In this document: one piece after another, positions 11,470 to 41,748 of the stretch
Layout: each line of letters starts with the position of its first letter
Numbering within the stretch: the stretch's first letter is position 1
From: Bacteroidota bacterium
GTDB taxonomy: Bacteria > Bacteroidota > Bacteroidia > Palsa-948
DNA length: 42,614 nt
Assembly (NCBI GenBank): GCA_016213435.1
Contig: JACRAL010000188.1
Location: forward strand, 1 to 42,614
Reading direction: 5' to 3'
Made by a program: the position numbers and the translations under genes
Notes under the pieces: generated by a model
Told to the model about the DNA's origin: nothing
Seen by the model: only the letters and a program-made list of their open reading frames with translations
Database searches by the model: none

Positions 11470-12063
11470 TTAACTCTTAAGCAAATCGATTTCTTCTTTT
11501 TGACCGGAGTTTTTCAAAATACTTACGAAAGCAATTTTGCTTTTTGCTATTTTATTATAGAAATCTAGTTCCGGAGCTTCATCCCTTGACGAGCTGATAA
11601 GATGATCAAGTCCTCGCCATATAAAAAACCATCCTGAAGGCTCTAAGAGTACAAGAAGCGTGTGCAATATTATATTTTCTGATTTGAGTGATGAAATATA
11701 ACTTGCTGCAATTAACAGAAAAACAGAAATGAGTACAAATGAAAATCCTTTTTCCCTTAACTGTTTTACTTGTTCTTGGTACGCATGAGCGTTTTTTCTG
11801 AAAAATGCATGCAAATGCTTTGAGATGATATTTTCGCTTTCCTGATTACGGCTTGTTTCAGGTACAAGCAACCGCAGTTCATTGATATGAAAACTATCTT
11901 CATGTGAAACTTTTCTCAGTTCATTTAAAAAATCATCTGAAATATTTCGTTCCGAAAATGATCTTGGATCAAAATCAGAAAAAATATCATCATACGTATC
12001 AATCCAAATGCTGATGTTTCGGGAAAAATCAGGTTGTTTATTTTTTTCCTCACTTGTTTCCAT
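11470..12063 (-). CDS. Two-helix membrane protein of unknown function
   Basis: 197 residues. The N-terminal half is soluble and acidic, with a motif DTYDDIFSDFDPRSFSER. It is followed by two hydrophobic segments at about 105-125 (FSFVLISVFLLIAASYIS) and 132-150 (IILHTLLVLLEPSGWFFIW), then a short basic tail. I have a general memory of similar uncharacterised proteins in bacteria and archaea with the same D-S-D-F-D-P-R motif before two helices, but no function. It lies 18 bp after the beta-CASP MBL gene on the same strand, so it is probably the last gene of the mla-trx-MBL operon. The region after its stop (11285-11469) holds no gene. Confidence 0.75.
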   Translation of the reverse strand: METSEEKNKQPDFSRNISIWIDTYDDIFSDFDPRSFSERNISDDFLNELRKVSHEDSFHINELRLLVPETSRNQESENIISKHLHAFFRKNAHAYQEQVKQLREKGFSFVLISVFLLIAASYISSLKSENIILHTLLVLLEPSGWFFIWRGLDHLISSSRDEAPELDFYNKIAKSKIAFVSILKNSGQKEEIDLLKS

Positions 12064-12081: not shown

Positions 12082-13467
12082 TTATATAGAAAATAAAATG
12101 TGCTCTTCATTTTGTTTAGGCAAAACAGATTGAATATTTAATTCATCATTAATTTTTACCCTGAAAACTTCCTGCGCCTGCGGTTCGCCATGAACAAGAA
12201 ATATTTTTCCCGGCCTCTTTTTGATTTGCTTCATCCATTCGATCATTTCTTGCTGGTCGGCATGGGCGGAAAGCGATGTTATTTCCCTGACTTTTGCTTG
12301 CACAGAATAATATCTTCCAAATATTTTTATTTCACCACTACCTTCTTTCAGCGCCCTGCCTCTTGTTCCTGCCGCCTGAAAACCTGCAAGAAGTATCGTG
12401 TTTTTCTTCTCTTTAACATAGCGTTTCATATATTCCAGCACACGGCCTCCCGTGAGCATTCCGCTCGCGGCAATAACAATTTTGCTTCCTTTCAGAAGAA
12501 CTATTTTTTGCGTATCCTGAATATCCCTGATAATGGAAATATCACGACAGACAGCATCACATTCTTCTTTTGAAAGTTTATGCCAATCCGGGTATTTATG
12601 CAGAACCTTTGTAGCATCCGCTCCCATCGGGCTGTCCATGTAAACCGGAATATTCGGTATACGGATCTCTTGTTTCAGGTCGTTTATAATATGCATCAAC
12701 TCCTGAGCTCGTCCAACTGCAAAACTTGGTATCAGAAGATTTCCTTTACTATGAATAGTTTCATTTATAATATCTGCAAGTTCATCCTTAACAGGAGTGG
12801 TTGGATGCAAACGATCTCCATAGGTACTTTCCATTACAAGAAAATCTGCTTCTTCCAATTGTACGGGGTCATTTAATATTTCAGAATTCTTTCTTCCAAT
12901 ATCTCCTGAAAATATAATTCTCTTTCCAAAACAATCTAAATCTACGAACGCAGAACCGAGGATGTGTCCGTTTTTCATAAAGCGGAACCGGATGTTATCA
13001 GAAATTTTTATCCAATCATGATCCATGCACGTTTCAAAATATTTCAATGTAAGTTCTACATCCTTCACCGTATAAAGAGGCAAGGAAGGTTTGTGCTTTG
13101 AAATGCCGTAACGATTTTCACGCTCCGCATCTTCTTCCTGGATTTTTGCGCTGTCGCGCAGAATAATTTCTGCCAGATCGCGGGTGGGCGGTGTCATTAG
13201 TATTTTCCCATTATATCCGGCCTTCACAAGCAATGGAAGATGCCCGCAATGATCAAGATGGGCATGTGTAAGAATTACAAGATGAATGTCCCTTACATCT
13301 ACAGGCAAATGCTCTCTGTTTTTCAATCTTAAAGATTTTAATCCCTGGAAAAGCCCGCAGTCAATTAAGAGATTTCGTTCCGGTGTTTTAAGCAGATGTT
13401 TAGAACCTGTTACAGTGCCTGCTGCGCCAAGAAATTGTATGGAAATATTTTGAGAACTCATATTCAA
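12082..13467 (-). CDS. MBL-fold beta-CASP metallohydrolase with RNA specificity domain
   Basis: 461 residues. The metallo-beta-lactamase motif HAHLDH is at 68-73, with GDIGRKN and the beta-CASP hallmarks MESTYGDR, AVGRAQEL and SAHADQQEM plus the final VHGEP of the RMMBL domain. Members of this family (CPSF73/Ysh1-like) are zinc-dependent endo- or 5'-exoribonucleases, so a role in RNA processing or decay is likely; the substrate is unknown. The gene overlaps the thioredoxin stop by four bases (start at 13467; a second in-frame ATG at 13461 gives MSSQN). In many bacteria such proteins are encoded near universal stress proteins. Here those lie about 3 kb away on the other strand. Confidence 0.9.
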   Translation of the reverse strand: MNMSSQNISIQFLGAAGTVTGSKHLLKTPERNLLIDCGLFQGLKSLRLKNREHLPVDVRDIHLVILTHAHLDHCGHLPLLVKAGYNGKILMTPPTRDLAEIILRDSAKIQEEDAERENRYGISKHKPSLPLYTVKDVELTLKYFETCMDHDWIKISDNIRFRFMKNGHILGSAFVDLDCFGKRIIFSGDIGRKNSEILNDPVQLEEADFLVMESTYGDRLHPTTPVKDELADIINETIHSKGNLLIPSFAVGRAQELMHIINDLKQEIRIPNIPVYMDSPMGADATKVLHKYPDWHKLSKEECDAVCRDISIIRDIQDTQKIVLLKGSKIVIAASGMLTGGRVLEYMKRYVKEKKNTILLAGFQAAGTRGRALKEGSGEIKIFGRYYSVQAKVREITSLSAHADQQEMIEWMKQIKKRPGKIFLVHGEPQAQEVFRVKINDELNIQSVLPKQNEEHILFSI

Positions 13468-13760
13468 GTATATTGTGAAACTATGTCGGCAAGTTGTGAT
13501 GCATTAGCTGTGCCGGATTGTCTCCATTTTATTTCTCCCTTCTTAAAAAGGATCAGCGTTGGAACCGACCGCACCCCGTACTGTGAAGCAGCAGCGGGAT
13601 TTTTATCTATGTCTACTTTCAGAATTCTAGCCTTGCCGTTTAATTTTGATGCGAGTTCTTTGAGTATAGGAGCCATCATTTTGCAGGGACCGCACCACTC
13701 GGCAGAAAAATCAATCAGCACGGGTTCGTTTGAATTTATCAACTCGTTAAATTTTGACAT
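13464..13760 (-). CDS. trxA: Thioredoxin
   Basis: 98 residues, a compact single-domain thioredoxin. The redox motif WCGPC is at 22-26 in SAEWCGPCKMMAPIL, and the cis-Pro loop (VRSVPTLILF) is present. No signal peptide, so it is cytoplasmic and would reduce protein disulfides using thioredoxin reductase. It is sandwiched between mlaD (2 bp upstream) and the MBL gene (4-bp overlap), so translation is probably coupled. Whether it serves as the housekeeping thioredoxin or a specialised copy cannot be decided here. Confidence 0.93.
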   Translation of the reverse strand: MSKFNELINSNEPVLIDFSAEWCGPCKMMAPILKELASKLNGKARILKVDIDKNPAAASQYGVRSVPTLILFKKGEIKWRQSGTANASQLADIVSQYT

Positions 13761-13762
13761 AC

Positions 13763-14740
13763 TTATTTATTTTTTTGATTTCTTTTTTCCTGCTTTTTGA
13801 AATATCTTTTCAACAGAAAACTGTGCTTAAGTGCTTCTAGGTCTTCGTTCAACGTGATTGAACCCTTATTAATATTATTCATGCTAGTGTTCAGGTTGTG
13901 AACGAATGTGGTATCCTTGAGAAGCACTCCAACCGAACCTTGTCCTTTTTCTAATCTGCCTGATATTTTAGAAAAATCTCCGAAGATAATTGCCATCGTA
14001 TCACTTACCTTTTCAAGTTTAACAATTACCTGATTGATCTTTCCTGAAAGAGTTGTGTCAGTAAGGAGAGCTCCTATGCTTCCCTTTCCTTTCATAATAT
14101 TTTCAGAAACATTTTTCAGGTTTCCCGTAAGCACAGCGCTTGAATTGCTTGCCATTTTAATATTCACTATAGATGATTTCACATTTTCAGCCATAACGGT
14201 ATCTGAGAACAAACTCCAAAGCGAATTGCTGTTATTTATTTTATGAGTAATGTTCTTCAAATCACTCGTGATAAATTCAAGATTACTACTGGTTTTGCTT
14301 AATGTTCTCAACGCATTATCCATTTGAAGGGAATGAAGCGTGATAAAAACACTCCCTTCTTGCACAGTTCCACCCTTTCCTTTGCCAGGTTCAATATTGA
14401 CCAATTTATTTCCAAGCAATCCATCAGTGCCGATTGAAATAATTGCATCCATTGAAATATATTGGGTCACATCTTCATCAATAGTAAAGTCCACTTTTAT
14501 AATTGTGTCAGCAATTGCATAGACTTCGGATACGGTCCCTACATTTATTCCATTAAAACGAACATTGTTTCCAGATAAAAGCCCGTTTACATTATTAAAA
14601 GTGGCGCTCACATTAATAGTTGTGTGGAAAATATTCTTCTTGCTTCCGATATAATACAAGGCAAGGATGAACAAAACAATTGCTGTCGTCACAAAAATTC
14701 CCAATTTGAGTTTATAATTGGACTGGTTGCTCATGTTCAA
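13763..14740 (-). CDS. mlaD: MlaD family protein (MCE domain), lipid transport
   Basis: 325 residues. One N-terminal transmembrane helix (LGIFVTTAIVLFILALYYIG, about 13-32) anchors a periplasmic MCE/MlaD domain (about 40-120; VNGLLSGNNVRFNGINVGTV and GLLGNKLVNIEPG). A long helical tail with two related segments follows (GKGSIGALLTDTTL and GQGSVGVLLKDTTF). MlaD forms a hexameric ring that binds phospholipids moving between inner and outer membranes. Its start overlaps the mlaF stop by four bases, so the order mlaE-mlaF-mlaD is the standard minimal Mla/MCE transporter of this phylum. Confidence 0.9.
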   Translation of the reverse strand: MNMSNQSNYKLKLGIFVTTAIVLFILALYYIGSKKNIFHTTINVSATFNNVNGLLSGNNVRFNGINVGTVSEVYAIADTIIKVDFTIDEDVTQYISMDAIISIGTDGLLGNKLVNIEPGKGKGGTVQEGSVFITLHSLQMDNALRTLSKTSSNLEFITSDLKNITHKINNSNSLWSLFSDTVMAENVKSSIVNIKMASNSSAVLTGNLKNVSENIMKGKGSIGALLTDTTLSGKINQVIVKLEKVSDTMAIIFGDFSKISGRLEKGQGSVGVLLKDTTFVHNLNTSMNNINKGSITLNEDLEALKHSFLLKRYFKKQEKRNQKNK

Positions 14741-15483
14741 TCAAAAAATTGTTTGATGTTTTTGTCGTTACTATTTTTCAACTCATCGTACGTTCCCTCT
14801 GCGTAACATTTCCCGTTAATGAGAACCACCACTCGGTTTGCTGTTCTGCGAACACAATTCATGTCGTGAGAAATAATAATGGAAGAGGTATTGAATTTTC
14901 TCTGAACTTCCAGCATGAGATGATTGATTTCTCTTCCTGTAATCGGATCAAGTCCTGTGGTGGGCTCATCGTATAACATCACTTCTGGGTTAAGGATGAG
15001 CATGCGTGCAATGCCGATGCGTTTTTTCATCCCACCCGAAAGTTCAGCAGGCATCATTGCTTCTGTACCTGCAAGCGCCACATTTTCCAAAGCTGTTTTT
15101 ATTAAAGCATCAACTTCCTGCTTGGAAATTTTATGTTTGTGCCTTCTTAATGGAAATTCCAGATTCTCTCTCACCGTCATGGAATCATACAAAGCGCTGC
15201 TCTGAAACAAGAAACCGATTTTTGCACGGATATCATCCAGTTCCTTATGTTTCAAATCAGTGATACTCATTCCAAAAACTTTCATCTCTCCTTCATCAGC
15301 ATCCAGCAATCTCACTAAACATTTTATCAATACTGACTTTCCTGTTCCAGATCTCCCAAGCACCACTACATTCTCACCCTTATATACATTCAGATTAAAA
15401 TCATTAAGCACATGATTATCTCCAAAAGATTTTTTTAAGTTTTGGATGATAACAACCGGCTCTCTAGTTTCTGTTGTATTCAT
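14737..15483 (-). CDS. mlaF: ABC transporter ATP-binding protein, MlaF type
   Basis: 248 residues. Walker A GRSGTGKS (43-50), Q-loop around Gln94 (GFLFQSSALYDS), signature LSGGMKKR (148-155) with the family-typical GGMKKR form, and Walker B YDEPTTGLDP (171-180). It would power the MlaE permease for phospholipid trafficking. It overlaps both neighbours by four bases (mlaE before, mlaD after), which indicates tight translational coupling. Confidence 0.93.
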   Translation of the reverse strand: MNTTETREPVVIIQNLKKSFGDNHVLNDFNLNVYKGENVVVLGRSGTGKSVLIKCLVRLLDADEGEMKVFGMSITDLKHKELDDIRAKIGFLFQSSALYDSMTVRENLEFPLRRHKHKISKQEVDALIKTALENVALAGTEAMMPAELSGGMKKRIGIARMLILNPEVMLYDEPTTGLDPITGREINHLMLEVQRKFNTSSIIISHDMNCVRRTANRVVVLINGKCYAEGTYDELKNSNDKNIKQFFD

Positions 15484-16253
15484 GTGAAATGAAGTATATC
15501 TGCAATTTGCGCTGCCAGCAAATCAATAATAAAAACCACAAAAGTGGAAACCACCACGGATGAATTTGCTGCTCTCCCCACGCCTTCTGTTCCATTCCGG
15601 GTGTAATATCCTTTGTAACATCCTATTACGGCAATGCCAAAACCAAAGAAAAAAGATTTAATGATGGAAGGAAGCACATCACTGAAAGAAAGTTTTTCAA
15701 AAATCTGGTTGGTATAAAGGTTAAAACTTATTACCTGTTTCATATTCACACCTATGAAAGCTCCATAAAGCGAAATCGTATCTGCAAGAATGACAAGAAT
15801 CGGCAGCATCAGCGTGGTCGCAATTACCCTTGTTACAATAAGATATTTGAATGGATTTGTTCCTGAGACTTCCATTGCATCTATTTGTTCTGTTACATTC
15901 ATTGAGCCAAGTTCTGCACCGATACCCGAACCAATTTTTCCGGCACATATCAAAGCGGTGATTACCGGAACTATTTCACGCACGAGGGAAACGGATACTA
16001 CTGAAGGCAGCCATGATTCCGTTCCGAATGCTTCCATAGAAGGATGAGATTGAATCGTGATGACCAATCCCATAATAAATCCGGTAACACCAACAAGAGT
16101 AAGGGTGCGATAACCGATTTCGAATGACTGCCGGAGTAACTCATTAAATTCATAAGGCGGCAAAAATCCTTCCCGAAAAAAACGTCCCGCAAAAATTGAA
16201 ATGCCTCCAACTTCTGAAAAAAAACTTTTTAATGGTTCAAATGTTTTAGTCAT
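15480..16253 (-). CDS. mlaE: ABC transporter permease, MlaE family
   Basis: 257 residues with about five to six hydrophobic segments. The MlaE signature LVREIVPVITALICAGKIGSGIGAE is recognisable in the middle (in parts: LVREIVPVIT, GKIGSGIGAELG, EQIDAMEVSG). It forms the inner-membrane channel of the Mla phospholipid transporter with MlaF and MlaD. It is the first gene of the minus-strand operon. The 120-bp gap before it is shared with the divergent plus-strand cluster, where I see no convincing TAnnTTTG box for this strand. Confidence 0.92.
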   Translation of the reverse strand: MTKTFEPLKSFFSEVGGISIFAGRFFREGFLPPYEFNELLRQSFEIGYRTLTLVGVTGFIMGLVITIQSHPSMEAFGTESWLPSVVSVSLVREIVPVITALICAGKIGSGIGAELGSMNVTEQIDAMEVSGTNPFKYLIVTRVIATTLMLPILVILADTISLYGAFIGVNMKQVISFNLYTNQIFEKLSFSDVLPSIIKSFFFGFGIAVIGCYKGYYTRNGTEGVGRAANSSVVVSTFVVFIIDLLAAQIADILHFT

Positions 16254-16373
16254 AATTTTCTAATTGCAAAAGTCATTATAATTAAAAACAATAGAAATGA
16301 AGATAATCAGCAAAGCATGTGATACTAATCAATCCTCTTATTGACCACAATCATATAAATTGAGATTCATTAC

Positions 16374-16763
16374 ATGCATCTTTGTTCATCAATTTTTATT
16401 CGCATGCAACTAACGCTTATTCAAACACGAACTTCTCCTGTAATGGATGAGTTTGCAGAAAAAATGGCAACACTCAATCTGCTTTATTACGCATCGGAAG
16501 CAGCAACCGAAATGGAGTTTGATTCTCCGGAAGAATTACAAGATTCCGTAAAACGCGCGATCGAATTTTGTTTGTCTGCCGGAATTCCCATCAAAGGAAA
16601 TTTTCAGCGTGTGTATAAATGTTTTGATGATGGGATTTTGTATGATTGGAAAGTATCTCAACTGGGCTATAAGTTAGTATGCCTCAGCGGAAAACCGTCC
16701 AATCCAATCGTAGCGCGATCATTCATACAACTTATTAAAGACAATCATTTAAATCATTTTTAA
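16374..16763 (+). CDS. Conserved-looking protein of unknown function
   Basis: 129 residues from the ATG at 16374. The ATGs at 16404 (MQLTLIQTRTSP) and 16443 (MDEFAEKMATLN) are also plausible, and the 16404 start is my preference because the first ten residues look non-coding. The protein is mixed alpha/beta with no signal peptide or membrane segment. A stretch NFQRVYKCFDDGILYDWKVS is compact and likely a folded core. I do not recognise a family. It begins a run of four closely spaced genes ending in a GyrI-like protein; the next gene starts one base after its stop. Confidence 0.65.
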   Translation: MHLCSSIFIRMQLTLIQTRTSPVMDEFAEKMATLNLLYYASEAATEMEFDSPEELQDSVKRAIEFCLSAGIPIKGNFQRVYKCFDDGILYDWKVSQLGYKLVCLSGKPSNPIVARSFIQLIKDNHLNHF

Positions 16764-16764
16764 C

Positions 16765-17202
16765 ATGAAAAAAACATCTTCTGAAAAACATGCTTTCCTT
16801 CTGGAAGCTCCACTCGAAGTTCTTCATGCGGAAAGTTTAGAATGGCTGGAAGAAATAGAATTCTGGAAAGATGAATCTGCTTTTTTCTATACTTTAGTTA
16901 TCGAAAAAACAAAACAAAATCTGGAGACATTTAAAACAAAAGAATCAAAAGACATAGAGAAACATCTTGTTTATATTTCGGCAGAAAAATTGGACGACTT
17001 AAGAATTGAGGTACAGGCACATGAACAATTTCTTGCCCGATTAATAGGCAACATAAAACTAGACGATCAATTATACCGAAGAAGGCACAAAGCTATTGCC
17101 GAAAAAATTCATTCGTTTGAAAGTGAATTTAAAGAAATGAAGAAAAAAGTTTTTCTTTCAGCTAAACAAGCAGTTGTAAAGAAGAAATCAATCAGTGTCT
17201 GA
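16765..17202 (+). CDS. Small helical (coiled-coil) protein of unknown function
   Basis: 145 residues, strongly charged and predicted almost entirely helical, with heptad-like patterning at about 30-60 and 75-130. The N-terminal part has LEWLEEIEFWKDESAFF. It has no signal peptide, no cysteines and no recognised domain. It starts one base after the previous stop, so it is likely translationally coupled, and is followed 24 bp later by the DUF2267 gene. The company of Usp and DUF2267 genes suggests a stress-response role, but that is inference. Confidence 0.7.
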   Translation: MKKTSSEKHAFLLEAPLEVLHAESLEWLEEIEFWKDESAFFYTLVIEKTKQNLETFKTKESKDIEKHLVYISAEKLDDLRIEVQAHEQFLARLIGNIKLDDQLYRRRHKAIAEKIHSFESEFKEMKKKVFLSAKQAVVKKKSISV

Positions 17203-17226
17203 ACGGAAAATTAATGCCTACCTGCC

Positions 17227-17709
17227 ATGTCACTTAATTTTGAAAAACACGCGCAAAAAGGAAACAAGTTTTTAAATGAACTTGCTGAAAACCTTGGCAA
17301 TAAGACGGATACAGCCAAAGCAGAACGGATACTGCGTGCTTTATTTCAAGCGCTTAGAAATCACCTTACTATAGAGGAAATTTTTCAACTTCTTTCGCAA
17401 TTACCAATTGCGTTGAAAGGTGTTTATATACACGGATGGATGCCAACTAAAGAAAAGGAAGTTAGCCGAAAGAAAATTGATTTCATTGAGGAAGTTCTCA
17501 AATATGCAGATGGCACATCGATACATGGCATTTCAGATATTGAGAAAGGAACAAAAGAGGTTCACGTAGTTTTTAAAACCCTTAAACAATATATTTCGAA
17601 AGGCGAGTTCAAAGATATTGAAGCTGTACTTCCCCGCCAGTTAAAAAAACTTTTAAGAGAAAGTCTTTACACCAAAACACTAACCTTAAATCTTATTCCT
17701 GAAAAATGA
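17227..17709 (+). CDS. DUF2267 domain-containing protein
   Basis: 160 residues. The sequence has the DUF2267 pattern: paired helical halves, AERILRALFQALRNHLTIEE and then a central QLPIALKGVYIHGWMP, followed by an acidic second half (DIEAVLPRQLKKLL). DUF2267 proteins have no established biochemical role but are frequent beside universal stress proteins and in stress-induced islands. The stop overlaps the next gene by four bases. Cytoplasmic, no cofactor motif seen. Confidence 0.8.
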   Translation: MSLNFEKHAQKGNKFLNELAENLGNKTDTAKAERILRALFQALRNHLTIEEIFQLLSQLPIALKGVYIHGWMPTKEKEVSRKKIDFIEEVLKYADGTSIHGISDIEKGTKEVHVVFKTLKQYISKGEFKDIEAVLPRQLKKLLRESLYTKTLTLNLIPEK

Positions 17710-18251
17710 AAACCATCCTTACTATTGTTGCTTCACTTTTAATTATAGTTCTCGCCTTTCTATGGTATAGTGGTGCTTTCACCTCTGTTAATGTAGAAGA
17801 AACTCTGGCGGGAGGATATAAGGTGGCTGGACTTGAGTTTACGGGGTCCTATTCAAAAGCCGGAGAGTATATTGAGAAGGTTGATAAAAAGTTAAAGAAA
17901 CTGGGGTTTAATTGTTCAAAAGGATTTGGAATTTACTACGATGATCCTAAAACAACATCACAGGAAAAATGCAGAGGATTTGTTGGAAATATTCTTGAAG
18001 AAAAAGACCTTAACAAGCTCTTGGAAATAAAATCGATAGGATTAAAAATAGATTCTATACCAAAATCGAAAGCGGTAGCTGTCCAATTTAAAGCAAACAC
18101 GTTTCTATCTTATGCGATTGGACCCATGAAAACTTATCCTGTAATCTCCAAATATATAAATGAAAACAAATACAAAGTACTCTATTCGTTAGAGGTGTAT
18201 GATATGCCTAAAAAAAGAATAACTTATATGATGCTGATATCAGCCCAGTAA
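17706..18251 (+). CDS. Membrane-anchored GyrI-like (SOUL-fold) small-molecule-binding protein
   Basis: 181 residues. A single N-terminal transmembrane helix (about 4-22, ILTIVASLLIIVLAFLWYS) is followed by a domain that resembles the GyrI/SOUL fold (AGGYKVAGLEFTGSYSKAGE, GIYYDDPKTT, CRGFVGNIL, then a C-terminal strand pair YSLEVYDMPKKRITYMMLIS). Proteins of this layout have a GyrI-like domain tethered to a membrane. The ligand is unknown. The gene overlaps the DUF2267 stop by four bases. Family call is moderate because it rests on pattern only. Confidence 0.65.
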   Translation: MKTILTIVASLLIIVLAFLWYSGAFTSVNVEETLAGGYKVAGLEFTGSYSKAGEYIEKVDKKLKKLGFNCSKGFGIYYDDPKTTSQEKCRGFVGNILEEKDLNKLLEIKSIGLKIDSIPKSKAVAVQFKANTFLSYAIGPMKTYPVISKYINENKYKVLYSLEVYDMPKKRITYMMLISAQ

Positions 18252-18287
18252 AAATAGTAATGTGCTATCAGAATAAAAATCATCCAA

Positions 18288-19142
18288 ATGAAAACAATTC
18301 TTGTTCCAACAGATTTCTCTGGAGCCTCAGAAAATGCGATTGATTTTGCTATCGCATTTGCAAAAAAAGAGAATGCAATGATAATTCTCCTTCATGCGTA
18401 TCATATCACTTATCCTGCATCTGATTTTTCAGGGGAAATTATTTCTAAAGAAGTTTCAGAACTAAAAAATATATCTGAAGAAAAACTTAGGAACCTATGT
18501 TTGAAAATAATGCAAACCGATAAGGTAAAATGCGAACGCGTTTGTAAAGAAGGGCTTGCGGTGGATATCATACTTGAAGCATCAAGAAGAATGCATCCCG
18601 ATTTTATTATAATGGGCACAAAAGGATCGAGCGGTATTAAAGAAATATTTTTGGGGAGCAACACAACAAAAGTTATTGAGAAGGCACAACACCCCGTTAT
18701 TGCAGTACCTGATGGCACCTTGTTCCATGGAATTAAGAAAATCACCTACGCGACTAATTACTATGAGAGTGACGTTGATGCGATAAAAACACTATGTGAA
18801 ATTGCAGAACCCTTTAAAGCGGTAATTAATATTCTTCATATCTCGGAGGGAGAATATGTTCCAGAAATTGAAAATGAATTACTGAAGCAATTTGTATCTA
18901 AAGTTTCAAAACAAGTTAATTACAACAATTTTTCTTTTCAGTTGATAATAGGAAAAGATATCGAGAAAGAGTTAAGTAATTATTTAATGAGTAGCTCTGC
19001 CGATTTGTTTTCCATGTCAATATTTCATCGCAATCTATTTGAAAAAATATTTGGGAAAAGTATTACAAAAAAACTTGCTTATCATACGCATGTACCATTG
19101 CTGGCATTTCATCACAAAAAAGAATCTGTGGTGTTTACTTAA
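18288..19142 (+). CDS. Universal stress protein, tandem UspA domains
   Basis: 284 residues with two Usp domains. The first (1-145) begins MKTILVPTDFSG and keeps the ATP-binding signature G-2x-G-9x-G-S (GTKGSSGIKEIFLGS). The second (about 150-280) lacks the glycine signature and ends in THVPLLAFHH, so it is probably a non-binding, dimer-like partner. Usp proteins help cells survive starvation, redox and envelope stress. The next gene is a homologous Usp 10 bp downstream. Expression with the preceding four-gene run is likely: the gap of 36 bp holds no promoter or terminator that I can see. Confidence 0.92.
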   Translation: MKTILVPTDFSGASENAIDFAIAFAKKENAMIILLHAYHITYPASDFSGEIISKEVSELKNISEEKLRNLCLKIMQTDKVKCERVCKEGLAVDIILEASRRMHPDFIIMGTKGSSGIKEIFLGSNTTKVIEKAQHPVIAVPDGTLFHGIKKITYATNYYESDVDAIKTLCEIAEPFKAVINILHISEGEYVPEIENELLKQFVSKVSKQVNYNNFSFQLIIGKDIEKELSNYLMSSSADLFSMSIFHRNLFEKIFGKSITKKLAYHTHVPLLAFHHKKESVVFT

Positions 19143-19152
19143 GACTTAATAC

Positions 19153-20010
19153 ATGAGAAAATACTACAAAATTCTGCTCGCTACTGATTATTCAGATGCC
19201 GTTATAAATGCTGAACGCTATGCGGTTCAGTTTGCAAAAAACATAAATGCAATTATTACATTCTTTCACGCATATAATTCGCCTCTTCCTCCTCCCAAGA
19301 TTACTATGAGCTATGAAGAAACACTTCAAAAGTTCAAGACTGAAGAAATGAAAAAACTTATTCAACACCGCAATGATCTTTTTCGTTCGTTGAATATTAA
19401 TCATGATAAATTAATCAGCGAGTGTGTTGTTAAAGATGGAAGTGCAGGAAATAAAATTTGCAAATACGCCAAAGAATCGAATGCTGATTTCATTATTATT
19501 GGAAGTCATGGAGAAAGCGGGTTTCGGGATGTATTATTTGGAAGTCATACATGGAACGTGATAAAAAAATCACTTATACCGGTCATTATTGTTCCAAAAG
19601 ATGCTTTGTTTACTGGAATTAAAAATATTGTTTTCGGCACAGAATACCGCGAAGGAGAAATCTCCGCACTTAATTTTCTTGCGCAATTTTCAAAACAACT
19701 CGAAGCTGAACTTATTGTGCTTCATGTTACAAACTACGTTCTGTCAAAAGCGTTTGAAAAAGAAATGTTTGAAAAATTCAAAAATGATATTGAAGGAAAG
19801 ATTTCGTATAAAAAATTAAAGATGCGGTTGATAAAAAACGACAACTTAATCGATGGATTGAACAAATTCTGTGAAAATGAAAGGGCAGATCTTCTTGTAA
19901 TGGCTCCTGAAAAACAAATCTTATTCGAAAAAATATTTTTGCCTTCAGCAAGTAGTACCCGAAAGATGAGTTTTCACTCTACTATTCCACTCATGACTAT
20001 TCCTGATTGA
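19153..20010 (+). CDS. Universal stress protein, tandem UspA domains (paralog)
   Basis: 285 residues, a paralog of the preceding Usp. Domain one starts YKILLATDYSDA and has the nucleotide signature GSHGESGFRDVLFGS. Domain two starts at about 150 (IKNIVFGTEYREGE) and lacks the glycine loop. The start MRKYYKI is 10 bp after the previous stop, so the pair is probably cotranscribed. Last gene before the 444-bp gap leading to the ribosomal cluster. Confidence 0.92.
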   Translation: MRKYYKILLATDYSDAVINAERYAVQFAKNINAIITFFHAYNSPLPPPKITMSYEETLQKFKTEEMKKLIQHRNDLFRSLNINHDKLISECVVKDGSAGNKICKYAKESNADFIIIGSHGESGFRDVLFGSHTWNVIKKSLIPVIIVPKDALFTGIKNIVFGTEYREGEISALNFLAQFSKQLEAELIVLHVTNYVLSKAFEKEMFEKFKNDIEGKISYKKLKMRLIKNDNLIDGLNKFCENERADLLVMAPEKQILFEKIFLPSASSTRKMSFHSTIPLMTIPD

Positions 20011-38857: not shown

Positions 38858-39058
38858 TTAAACCGAAAAGGGATAAACAATTTTGTTTGTCCCTTTTTTT
38901 ATGGTAAAAACACCTCCACCCTGCCCTCTCGTCATATTTCTGACTTTCTCCACAGTCAAAACGTCATCTTCAAATATTCTCTCCTGCCATAGTCGCCTGA
39001 TTAAGATCATTTGAGGGGTTGGATATGTTTTTGACATTCGAACTCGCACAATAAACAA
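38858..39058 (-). CDS. Possible small protein between rplQ and clpB (doubtful)
   Basis: 66 residues from 39058, or 59 from an internal Met ([10 protein letters not shown]...). The sequence is protein-like ([29 protein letters not shown]) and the frame is fully open, but its last 15 codons are the rplQ terminator and its start lies 5 bp from the clpB start, leaving no room for a clpB promoter outside it. I do not recognise a family. It may instead be an intergenic repeat with an incidental open frame. Confidence 0.3.
38866..38900 (+). terminator. Intrinsic terminator after rplQ
   Basis: AAAAGGGATAAAC (38866-38878) pairs with GTTTGTCCCTTTT (38885-38897) around an AATTTT loop, with one T-G wobble, and continues as a T run to 38900. 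It lies 24 bp after the rplQ stop and is the best intrinsic terminator in the window. The symmetric A/T flanks mean it could also work in the other direction. Confidence 0.85.
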
Positions 39059-39063
39059 AAAAA

Positions 39064-41748
39064 ATGAACCTAGAAAAATTCACCCTGAAATCTCAAGAAG
39101 CCATTCAGCAGGCACAGCAGATTGCTATGAGCAATGAGCACCAAGCGATTGAAAACGGGCATATCCTCAAAGGAATTCTTTCTGTGGATGAATCCGTAAC
39201 ACCTTTTCTTCTCAAGAAGCTGAATATAAATACGAACATCTTTACCAAGGCATTGGATAAAATAATTGAATCTTATCCTAAAGTTTCGGGAGGAAATAGT
39301 CAGCAGCATCTTTCCCATTCTGCAAATCAAACGGTGAGCAAAGCGGAGAGTTATATGAAAGAGTTCAGCGATGAATATGTAAGCATTGAACTTCTGCTCC
39401 TTGGAATTATTTCTGCCAAAGACTCTGTTTCGCAAATGATGAAGGACATCGGCATCACTGAAAAAGATTTGAAAGCAGCCATCAAGGAACTCCGCAAGGG
39501 AGAACGCGTCACCTCAAATTCCCAAGAAGAAACTTACAACGCACTAAAAAAATATGCCATCAACTTTAATGAGCAGGCGAAAAGCGGGAAGTTGGATCCT
39601 GTCATCGGACGCGATGAAGAAATACGCAGAGTGCTGCAAATTCTCACACGCAGAACGAAGAACAATCCCATTCTTGTAGGTGAACCCGGTGTCGGAAAAA
39701 CTGCCATTGCAGAAGGTATTGCACACCGCATTGTGGATGGCGATGTGCCGGATAATCTAAAAACAAAACAACTATTCTCTCTCGACATGGCTGCGCTTAT
39801 TGCCGGAGCAAAATACAAAGGCGAGTTTGAAGAAAGATTAAAATCTGTGGTGAAAGAAGTAACGAGTTCGAATGGAGAAATAATTCTTTTCATAGATGAG
39901 ATTCACACACTCATTGGCGCAGGCGGTGGCGAAGGTGCCATGGATGCAGCAAATATTTTAAAACCCGCCCTCGCACGCGGAGAATTACGCGCCATCGGGG
40001 CAACAACACTTGGAGAGTTTCAAAAGTATTTTGAAAAAGACAAAGCACTGGAAAGACGTTTTCAGAAAGTGATGATAGATGAACCAAGCACGGAAGATGC
40101 GATCTCCATGCTTCGCGGCATCAAAGAAAAATATGAAGCGCACCACAAAGTGAGAATTAAAGACGAAGCTATTATCGCATCGGTGGAATTATCTCAGCGA
40201 TACATTACAGAACGTTTTCTTCCCGACAAAGCCATTGATCTTATTGACGAAGCTGCATCTAAACTTAGAATGGAAATGAATTCCATGCCGATTGAATTAG
40301 ATGAAGTGGAAAGAAAAATCCGTCAGTTGGAAATTGAACGCGAAGCTATCAAGCGAGAGAACGATAAATCAAAATTAGAAAATCTCAATAAAGAAATTTC
40401 TGAACTAAATGACAAACGCAGCAATCTGCGCGCTCAATGGAAATCAGAAAAAGAAATTGTTGAAGGGATCCAGAAAGCAAAAGAAAGCATTGAACATCTA
40501 AAACTAGAAGCCACCCAAGCAGAACGTGAAGGAAATTACGGGAAAGTTGCTGAAATCCGATATGGAAAAATGAAAGAAGCGGAACAAAAACTGGAGGAAT
40601 TCAAAACAAAACTCGCCAAGATGCAGTTGAGCGGAAGCAATATGCTCAAAGAAGAAGTGGACGCAGAAGATATTGCAGATGTAATTTCCCGTTGGACTGG
40701 AATTCCGGTAAGCAAAATGCTGCAAAGCGATAAAGAAAAACTTTTACATCTGGAAGAAGAACTTCATAAAAGAATTATCGGACAGGAAGAAGCCGTTTCT
40801 GCCGTTGCAAATGCCATCCGCAGAAGTCGTGCGGGATTGCAGGACATGAAACGCCCGATAGGTTCATTCATCTTTCTCGGAACAACGGGAGTCGGAAAAA
40901 CCGAACTCGCAAAGGTGCTTGCAGATTATTTATTCAATAACGAAAATTCAATCACACGAATTGATATGAGCGAATATCAGGAGCGTCACGCAGTTTCTCG
41001 TTTGGTGGGGGCACCTCCGGGGTATGTTGGATATGAAGAGGGTGGGCAGCTTACTGAAGCCGTTCGCAGGAAACCGTATTCCGTGGTATTACTCGATGAA
41101 ATTGAAAAAGCGCACCCGGATGTTTTCAATATTCTTTTACAGGTGTTAGATGACGGCAGACTAACCGATAACAAAGGACGTGTTGCTAGTTTCAAGAACA
41201 CCATTATTATTATGACCTCAAACATCGGTTCGCATCTCATTCAGGAGAATATGGAAAAGATGGATGAGTTCAACCGTGATAATGTATTAGACGCAACAAA
41301 AATCGCTGTGATGGAACTCTTGAGAAAAACTGTTCGTCCTGAATTTCTCAACCGAGTGGATGAAACCATTATGTTCAGTCCGCTGACGAAAAAAGACGTA
41401 CGGAAAATTGCAGTGCTGCAGCTTGGTGCACTCGAGAAAAAATTAGCAGAACTCGGCATACAACTCACCGCAAGCGAATTCGCTTTGGACTGGCTTGCAC
41501 AGCAGGGATATGATCCCCAGTTTGGCGCACGGCCCATCAAGCGCGTGATCCAGAAAAATGTGCTGGACGAATTATCCAAACAACTGCTGATGGGAACGGT
41601 AGAGAAAAATTCAGAGATCGTGATGGATGTATTTGATGATCCTGATGTAAAAGGAAGAGCCAGCAAAATCGTTTTCAGAAAACCGATTAAAGAATCAGAA
41701 AAAATTTCTCGAGAAAACGGGGAGAGTAAGAAGAAGGTAAAAGTTTAA
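39064..41748 (+). CDS. clpB: ATP-dependent disaggregase ClpB
   Basis: 894 residues. N-terminal Clp_N repeats (1-150), first AAA+ domain with Walker A GEPGVGKT (206-213) and Walker [15 protein letters not shown], the coiled-coil middle domain (about 400-540) that defines ClpB, second AAA+ domain with Walker A GTTGVGKT (606-613; Thr where Pro is usual) and [14 protein letters not shown], and the C-terminal sensor region ([14 protein letters not shown]). There is no ClpP-binding IGF/L loop evident. With DnaK it rescues aggregated proteins after heat stress. About 30 residues longer than E. coli ClpB, mainly a charged tail. Confidence 0.96.

Follow-up and report, generated by a model that had tools for sequence, protein, structure and literature searches.

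Regulons of the dormancy type are well known in Actinobacteria, where DevR (DosR) of Mycobacterium, a response regulator of the NarL family, and OsdR of Streptomyces act, while the switching of survival genes in uncultured Bacteroidota is much less clear. Among the regulators of the CRP/FNR class, CRP and FNR read the TGA of their boxes through an E-x-x-x-R core, the core of these boxes being TGA-N6-TCA, and class II promoters carry the box at -41.5. Here we analyze a stretch of 42,614 nucleotides from a Bacteroidota bacterium (assembly GCA_016213435.1, contig JACRAL010000188.1, positions 1 to 42,614, hereafter the window; contig C140 of genome G000 in our set, an environmental genome of Bacteroidia type), in which a six-gene run encodes two small proteins (gene 1 and gene 2), a DUF2267 protein, a GyrI-like protein and two Usp proteins, divergent from an operon for Mla-type lipid transport. 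On balance, we favor the view that the six genes form a single transcription unit within a survival regulon of the dormancy type, marked by paired boxes 22 bp apart and controlled by response regulators that combine a receiver, a cNMP domain and a Crp-type helix-turn-helix (HTH) domain, here termed REC-Crp. Judged from sequence, membership of the operon in a DevR/DosR-like survival regulon is most likely, and two-component regulators of the REC-Crp type are probably the drivers.

Of the new findings, the strongest is that both divergent operons share a paired-box promoter with 22-bp spacing. Each box follows the inverted repeat TGAYN4RTCA, and an exact pair, with its boxes 22 bp apart, spans 34 bp. 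In the window, box 1 (TGATACTAATCA, 16320-16331) is the far box for the gene-1 operon and the near box for the Mla operon, while box 2 (TGACCACAATCA, 16342-16353), 22 bp from it, is the near box for the gene-1 operon. A predicted -7 element of the gene-1 operon (CATCTTTG, 16377-16384, + strand) begins 23 bp after box 2, and a weaker match for the Mla operon (TTCTATTG, 16289-16296, - strand) lies 23 bp after box 1. Since each box has a -7-like element 23 bp away, one pair could drive both divergent operons. In Flavobacterium, TAnnTTTG lies at -12 to -5 according to excerpts of PMC9723704, and the same consensus appears in excerpts of PMC7366714. Given the fixed offset of the -7 element and this reported position, the near box would be centered at -41.5 and the far box at -63.5, which is the arrangement of an activator. 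The TGA-N6-TCA core and the predicted near box at -41.5 resemble class II CRP/FNR promoters, whereas the second box fixed at -63.5 and the Bacteroidota -7 element set the present promoters apart.

The pairing recurs well beyond the window. In the stress islands that hold these families, TGAYN4RTCA repeats precede gene 1, gene 2, DUF2267 and TerB-like genes, among others, and exact pairs occur in the window's genus as well as in several other families. Among 56 neighborhood loci, 17 of the 29 box pairs within 150 bp were exactly 22 bp apart and three were 23 bp apart; five control pairs in this count match five pairs on contig C56 of G219, as one of the control regions (L207, G219:C56:70-90 kb) was found to lie in the island of that genome. 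Genome-wide, exact pairs numbered 8 in G000, 9 in G001, 4 in G002, 9 in G003, 14 in G004 and 2 in G005, 46 in all, against none in any of the six for a reversed-pattern control. When any gap of 0-25 was allowed, the same six genomes held 54 pairs (10, 11, 4, 11, 16 and 2, respectively; control, 1), 46 of which have the exact gap. Sixty distinct pairs in eight genomes were intergenic in 58 cases, and in 55 the distance to a start codon was between -20 and 250 bp, with a median of 53 bp. They gave 57 promoter readings (39 one-sided and 18 from divergent pairs), 24 of which match TAnnTT[TGA]G, with the match at an offset of 23 in 17 cases and of 22 or 24 in four. Boxes were intergenic in 104 of 136 cases in 22 island loci that we picked ourselves, compared to 16 of 48 in controls. 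The fixed 22-bp phase and the -7 element at a fixed offset also make it very improbable that the cluster is no more than a loose grouping of stress genes that share no control, a reading already disfavored despite a fluid gene order in which DUF2267, gene 1, beta-CASP and J-protein genes come and go between relatives.

The genes behind the other seven exact pairs of G000 indicate what the regulon may be for. One pair precedes DoxX-Usp and another a TerB-like gene; one lies before a baeRF-type protein, with a divergent CDP-alcohol transferase on its other side, and one before an S30AE protein scoring above the HPF/YfiA cut-off, with a divergent short-chain dehydrogenase/reductase on its other side. 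The baeRF-type protein comes near the NCBIfam model of a ribosome hibernation factor (232 bits, below the cut-off of 330). Pairs also precede a receiver-Crp regulator gene, a 205-amino-acid protein of no family and a 232-amino-acid protein ahead of PhaC of polyhydroxyalkanoate (PHA) synthesis. Going by these family assignments, such a gene content is that of a programme for slow-growth survival, and similar gene sets follow the pairs in G001, G003, G004 and G219. It is in the placing of Usp, HPF/S30AE, a baeRF-type hibernation factor and PHA synthesis behind one type of box that G000 resembles the DevR/DosR regulon, as it does in the two-component control proposed here, which is likewise that of DevR/DosR and OsdR. 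The candidate regulator differs, being receiver, cNMP and HTH_Crp_2 rather than NarL-type, and so does the site, TGAYN4RTCA in 22-bp pairs as opposed to a AGGGCCGATCGGCCCT-like site in excerpts of PMC5069765. Gene content of this kind recalls DevR/OsdR-type regulons as portrayed in parts of PMC5069765 and PMC2914252; in the former, the OsdR set holds Usp, pyruvate phosphate dikinase (PPDK) and nitroreductase, and L036 has genes for Usp, PPDK, nitroreductase and Hsp20. By analogy, the paired-box regulon may thus work like the DevR regulon, and we do not file it as a member. A search of open-licence papers found no receiver-Crp survival regulon in Bacteroidota and no paper on DUF2267 together with Usp, DUF2267 itself occurring in one paper there. 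Because the 34-bp paired box keeps a constant distance to the promoter, the regulon can be recognized in the sequence of many genomes, and this places DUF2267 and two unnamed protein families in a context. Three further proteins of 204-207 amino acids, similar to each other, each lie behind a box pair (L281:5527-6144, L291:2306-2920 and L297:2999-3622), and that of L281 matched neither Pfam nor NCBIfam. In a RIFCSPLOWO2 Bacteroidetes genome, the stretch G219:C56:44-92 kb (L207, L299-L301) is one long stress island that holds about a dozen box pairs of the 22-bp kind and would suit a study of the regulon.

As to the protein that reads the pair, 20 distinct REC-Crp proteins were found in the loci examined, and the 20 control regions had none. 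All eight that were scanned have receiver, cNMP and HTH_Crp_2 domains above the Pfam cut-off, and the HTH domain retains an E-x-x-x-R core like that of CRP and FNR. On contig C66, five of the eight pairs of the window's own genome cluster around two REC-Crp genes. An exact pair lies upstream of four of the 20 distinct REC-Crp genes, in three of them at 47-48 bp from the start, which suggests autoregulation. We therefore regard a REC-Crp protein as a more likely binder of the pair than a one-component Crp/Fnr protein. In the mechanism that we propose, histidine kinases would phosphorylate the REC-Crp (REC-cNMP-HTH) response regulators, which would bind the pair as two dimers on the same face of the DNA and turn on both divergent operons in slow-growth or low-oxygen stress, the joint output being Usp, DUF2267, Mla lipid transport, thioredoxin and the beta-CASP protein.

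Several observations weigh against this reading. Single boxes show no excess in the window (3 found, 3.95 expected), where only the pairing is unusual, and the window's own -7 elements, CATCTTTG and TTCTATTG, are imperfect. Pairs with a gap of 0-25 also occur where neither gene 1 nor DUF2267 matches (for example, 11 in G009 and 12 in G020), and G006, of the window's genus, has none. Sixteen of the 20 REC-Crp genes have no exact upstream pair, only eight of the 22 island loci contain a REC-Crp gene, and the genus holds other Crp/Fnr proteins as possible binders, among them three that carry N-terminal cysteines and are encoded behind a G001 pair.

Gene 1 poses a separate question. Its sequence aligns to residues 1-118 of DinD (hhalign probability 99.0%, E 2.1e-17), its relative in L039 is also related to DinD (profile E 1.5e-8), and its AlphaFold2 model (predicted local distance difference test, pLDDT, 88.3) resembles phage antirepressors best among viral models (best E 0.004; G9BW56, template-modelling score 0.65 over 95 columns, root-mean-square deviation 2.7). 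The fold search in PDB gave no match at E<0.001, and VIA-align in PDB reached a best Z of 4.0, with mostly winged-helix structures. Neither gene 1 nor the four relatives scanned matched Bro-N (PF02498) above the gathering score, which the DinD of the same genome does (34 bits; cut-off 25.6). From these alignments, gene 1 is a stand-alone Bro-N/DinD-N domain: at 119 amino acids it lacks the C-terminal half of DinD, which has about 270-300 amino acids and, in the copy of this genome, 273. That DinD homolog (C24, L042:9498-10319) adjoins groES-groEL-like genes, recognized by eye from their sequence starts, and this may be another link of the domain family with chaperone genes.

The gene-1 set comprises 18 loci, including the truncated copy of L038 (90 amino acids, internal stop); rows of DinD length, the degenerate copy of G103 (L122) and weaker rows such as those of G392, G125, G013 and G305 were left out. 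In eight of these loci, representing eight families and not including the window, gene 1 lies directly downstream of a J-protein gene, and a J-protein gene is found within 8 kb in 10 of the 18, compared to none of 20 controls. The one J-protein of these that was scanned (L035) has a J-domain and DnaJ_C, with no zinc-finger match. The arrangement is reminiscent of CbpA-CbpM, where, as PMC4063869 describes, CbpM has a MerR-like fold and binds the J-domain of CbpA, and it is possible, if on the less probable side, that gene 1 does likewise with a CbpA-like protein and so tunes DnaK. A tree of 46 J-proteins splits with support of 100/100 into a clade A, with all 10 gene-1-linked proteins and four others (L143, L210, L211 and L212), and a clade B, with all 30 CbpM-linked proteins and those of G000 and G001. 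This split raises the question why CbpM accompanies the J-proteins of one branch, and a Bro-N-like domain those of the other. Gene 1 differs from CbpM in sequence as in J-protein clade, and its candidacy as a CbpM homolog was rejected (no match to MerR_2, PF13591; hhalign probability 0.1%). Mutual exclusion of gene 1 and CbpM is uninformative either way, CbpM being present in one of 18 gene-1 genomes and in 64 of the 395 genomes of the class that formed our wider set (20 genomes were checked, of which two lack gene 1).

Two findings argue against a CbpM-like role. Gene 1 is present in G000, G001, G004, G042 and G219 with no clade-A J-protein among their J-protein matches, which makes a J-protein role doubtful in the window's own genome. 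In the gene-1 tree, the island proteins make up a clade of their own (95/91), distinct from the J-linked ones; accordingly, a single event seems to have brought the companion of the J-protein into the stress islands, and its role may have changed. A box lies within 300 bp upstream of the J-protein gene in three of 11 loci (L125, L035 and L143), so that the J-linked forms stand mostly outside the paired-box regulon. In G003, of the window's genus, a clade-A J-protein gene is found between MlaD and thioredoxin genes (L210), in a run of MlaF, MlaD, J-protein, thioredoxin, two small genes and beta-CASP that is otherwise like the window's divergent operon. Under the survival-regulon reading, gene 1 would be a Bro-N/DinD-N domain taken over from a lineage where a J-protein is its neighbor, and most likely, though this is a guess, it regulates a partner protein, for which a J-protein is the first candidate. 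It is doubtful that one could go as far as an unrecognized DevR-like survival regulon in many Bacteroidia (receiver-Crp, two dimers, 22-bp boxes; Usp, two kinds of hibernation factor, storage polymer and lipid transport) together with a DinD/Bro-N-derived family as a second modulator of J-proteins, unrelated to CbpM.

Less probable than control by REC-Crp proteins is that a classic FNR-type sensor of oxygen or nitric oxide, that is, a one-component Crp/Fnr protein, reads the pair, which would place the operon in an anaerobic-respiration regulon. The core of the boxes is that of FNR/CRP boxes, and in G001 a 22-bp pair stands upstream of a cytochrome c gene, after which come three Crp/Fnr genes and one of the COX1 family (NorB-like; L285, G001:C51, which holds more than one cytochrome c gene). 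All three of these Crp/Fnr proteins, and a homolog in G003, carry an N-terminal CxxC...C motif, and in G003 a pair is near a Crp/Fnr gene next to a HemN-like radical-SAM gene. Against this stands the clustering of pairs around the two REC-Crp genes of contig C66, and a cysteine-type Crp/Fnr gene was not shown in G000, no dedicated search of that genome having been made. We consider it more improbable still that gene 1 itself acts locally to regulate transcription of the divergent operons, with Bro-N as its DNA-binding domain. Its divergent placement in the window and in L033, its position as first gene ahead of MlaE in L120 and L121 and its phage antirepressor fold relatives would fit such a role, but most members have a net negative charge (pI 5.3 for the window protein), the J-protein-linked relatives come second in their gene pair, and what is conserved between the operons is a box pair of the Crp/Fnr type, which is also found at many promoters far from any gene 1.

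For the cluster as a whole, an earlier note on this DNA, made from the sequence alone, had proposed an undescribed stress module in which a small-molecule sensor at the membrane, the GyrI-like protein, is linked to the Usp proteins. A stress module it is in kind; its visible logic is that of a genome-wide regulon and not of a self-contained sensor module. Among 60 genomes (own and relatives), gene 1 is present in 8, gene 2 in 18, DUF2267 in 7 and the GyrI-like gene in 2, one of these being the window's own genome and the other having its copy at an unrelated locus. The GyrI-like gene is also missing from the matching runs of L031, L032, L033 and L035, and we thus dismissed it as a conserved part of the cluster; a membrane sensor feeding Usp is not supported. 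Of the 395 genomes of the class, 150 have gene 2, a common gene, and 18 have DUF2267 above the cut-off, which makes it rare. Relatives do carry genes 1 and 2 together with DUF2267 and Usp, a co-occurrence that the note had advised looking for. Within 8 kb of gene 1, in the 18 loci and 20 control regions, respectively, Usp is found in 6 and 0, Mla in 6 and 1, DUF2267 in 4 and 0 and gene 2 in 4 and 0; the DinD column of this count is gene 1 itself, and a PPDK match 272 bp from gene 1 in L039, which overlaps gene 1's place, was not used. Genes 1 and 2 are jointly near Usp in four of the 18 loci (the window, L031, L033 and L035; controls, 0 of 20), of which the window, L031 and L033 are of one genus, so that the counts are not independent. 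The order is gene 1-gene 2-Usp in L031, gene 2-DUF2267-Usp-Usp in L032, and gene 1-gene 2-beta-CASP-DUF2267-Usp-Usp in L033, which is divergent from Mla like the window; in L035, genes 1 and 2 are near DUF2267, Usp, J-protein and beta-CASP genes. Named relatives of gene 1 are from uncultured Bacteroidetes and metagenome-assembled genomes of Flavobacteriales.

All six open reading frames lie on the + strand where the note had placed them, and its first three gaps of 1, 24 and -4 bp agree with their positions, the later ones being 36 and 10 bp. Only the start of gene 1 had to be moved, from 16374 to 16404, and this should be the true start: conservation begins there, the relative in L031 has an in-frame stop just upstream of the matching position, and ATG 16374 is located just ahead of the predicted -7 element and upstream of the predicted transcription start, within the predicted promoter. 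Gene 1 (16404-16763) is followed by gene 2 (16765-17202, 145 amino acids), the DUF2267 gene (17227-17709), the GyrI-like gene (17706-18251), whose product has a hydrophobic N-terminus and which appears to be a local addition to the operon, and the Usp genes (18288-19142 and 19153-20010). Pfam scores bear out the assignments of DUF2267 (77.8 bits; cut-off 29.8) and Usp (97.7 and 111.7; cut-off 24), as well as that of the GyrI-like protein (29.5; cut-off 26), while genes 1 and 2 have no Pfam family above the cut-off.

The predicted structure of gene 2, which is widespread across Bacteroidia, consists of three long helices (pLDDT 83.7). Against PDB structures it gave no match at E<0.001, only generic helix bundles, and against PDB sequences no convincing relative. 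Conserved among 30 aligned sequences are W27 (30), E37 and H108 (29 each), H86 (28), E87 (27) and H21 (26), and H21, H86 and H108, which by helix register would be at one level, are a possible metal site.

The divergent operon, on the - strand, is led by an MlaE-like permease (15480-16253), which shares the box pair, followed by an MlaF-like ATPase (14737-15483), an MlaD-like protein (13763-14740), a thioredoxin (13464-13760), a metallo-beta-lactamase-fold protein of the beta-CASP type (12082-13467) and a 197-amino-acid protein of no known family (11470-12063), which is found in L035 too. The beta-CASP protein pointed out in the earlier note is confirmed (Beta-Casp, 113.6 bits), and its link with the cluster is firmer than was then apparent, given the common paired-box intergenic region and the place of the beta-CASP gene inside the gene 1-gene 2-DUF2267-Usp run of L033. 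With the Cas14 model of type VII CRISPR, the same protein reaches 404 bits, below the cut-off of 800. Elsewhere in the window, a single TGAYN4RTCA box (38998-39009), which may be due to chance, is located 55 bp upstream of a ClpB-like gene (39064-41748), with no good -7 element at the customary offset.

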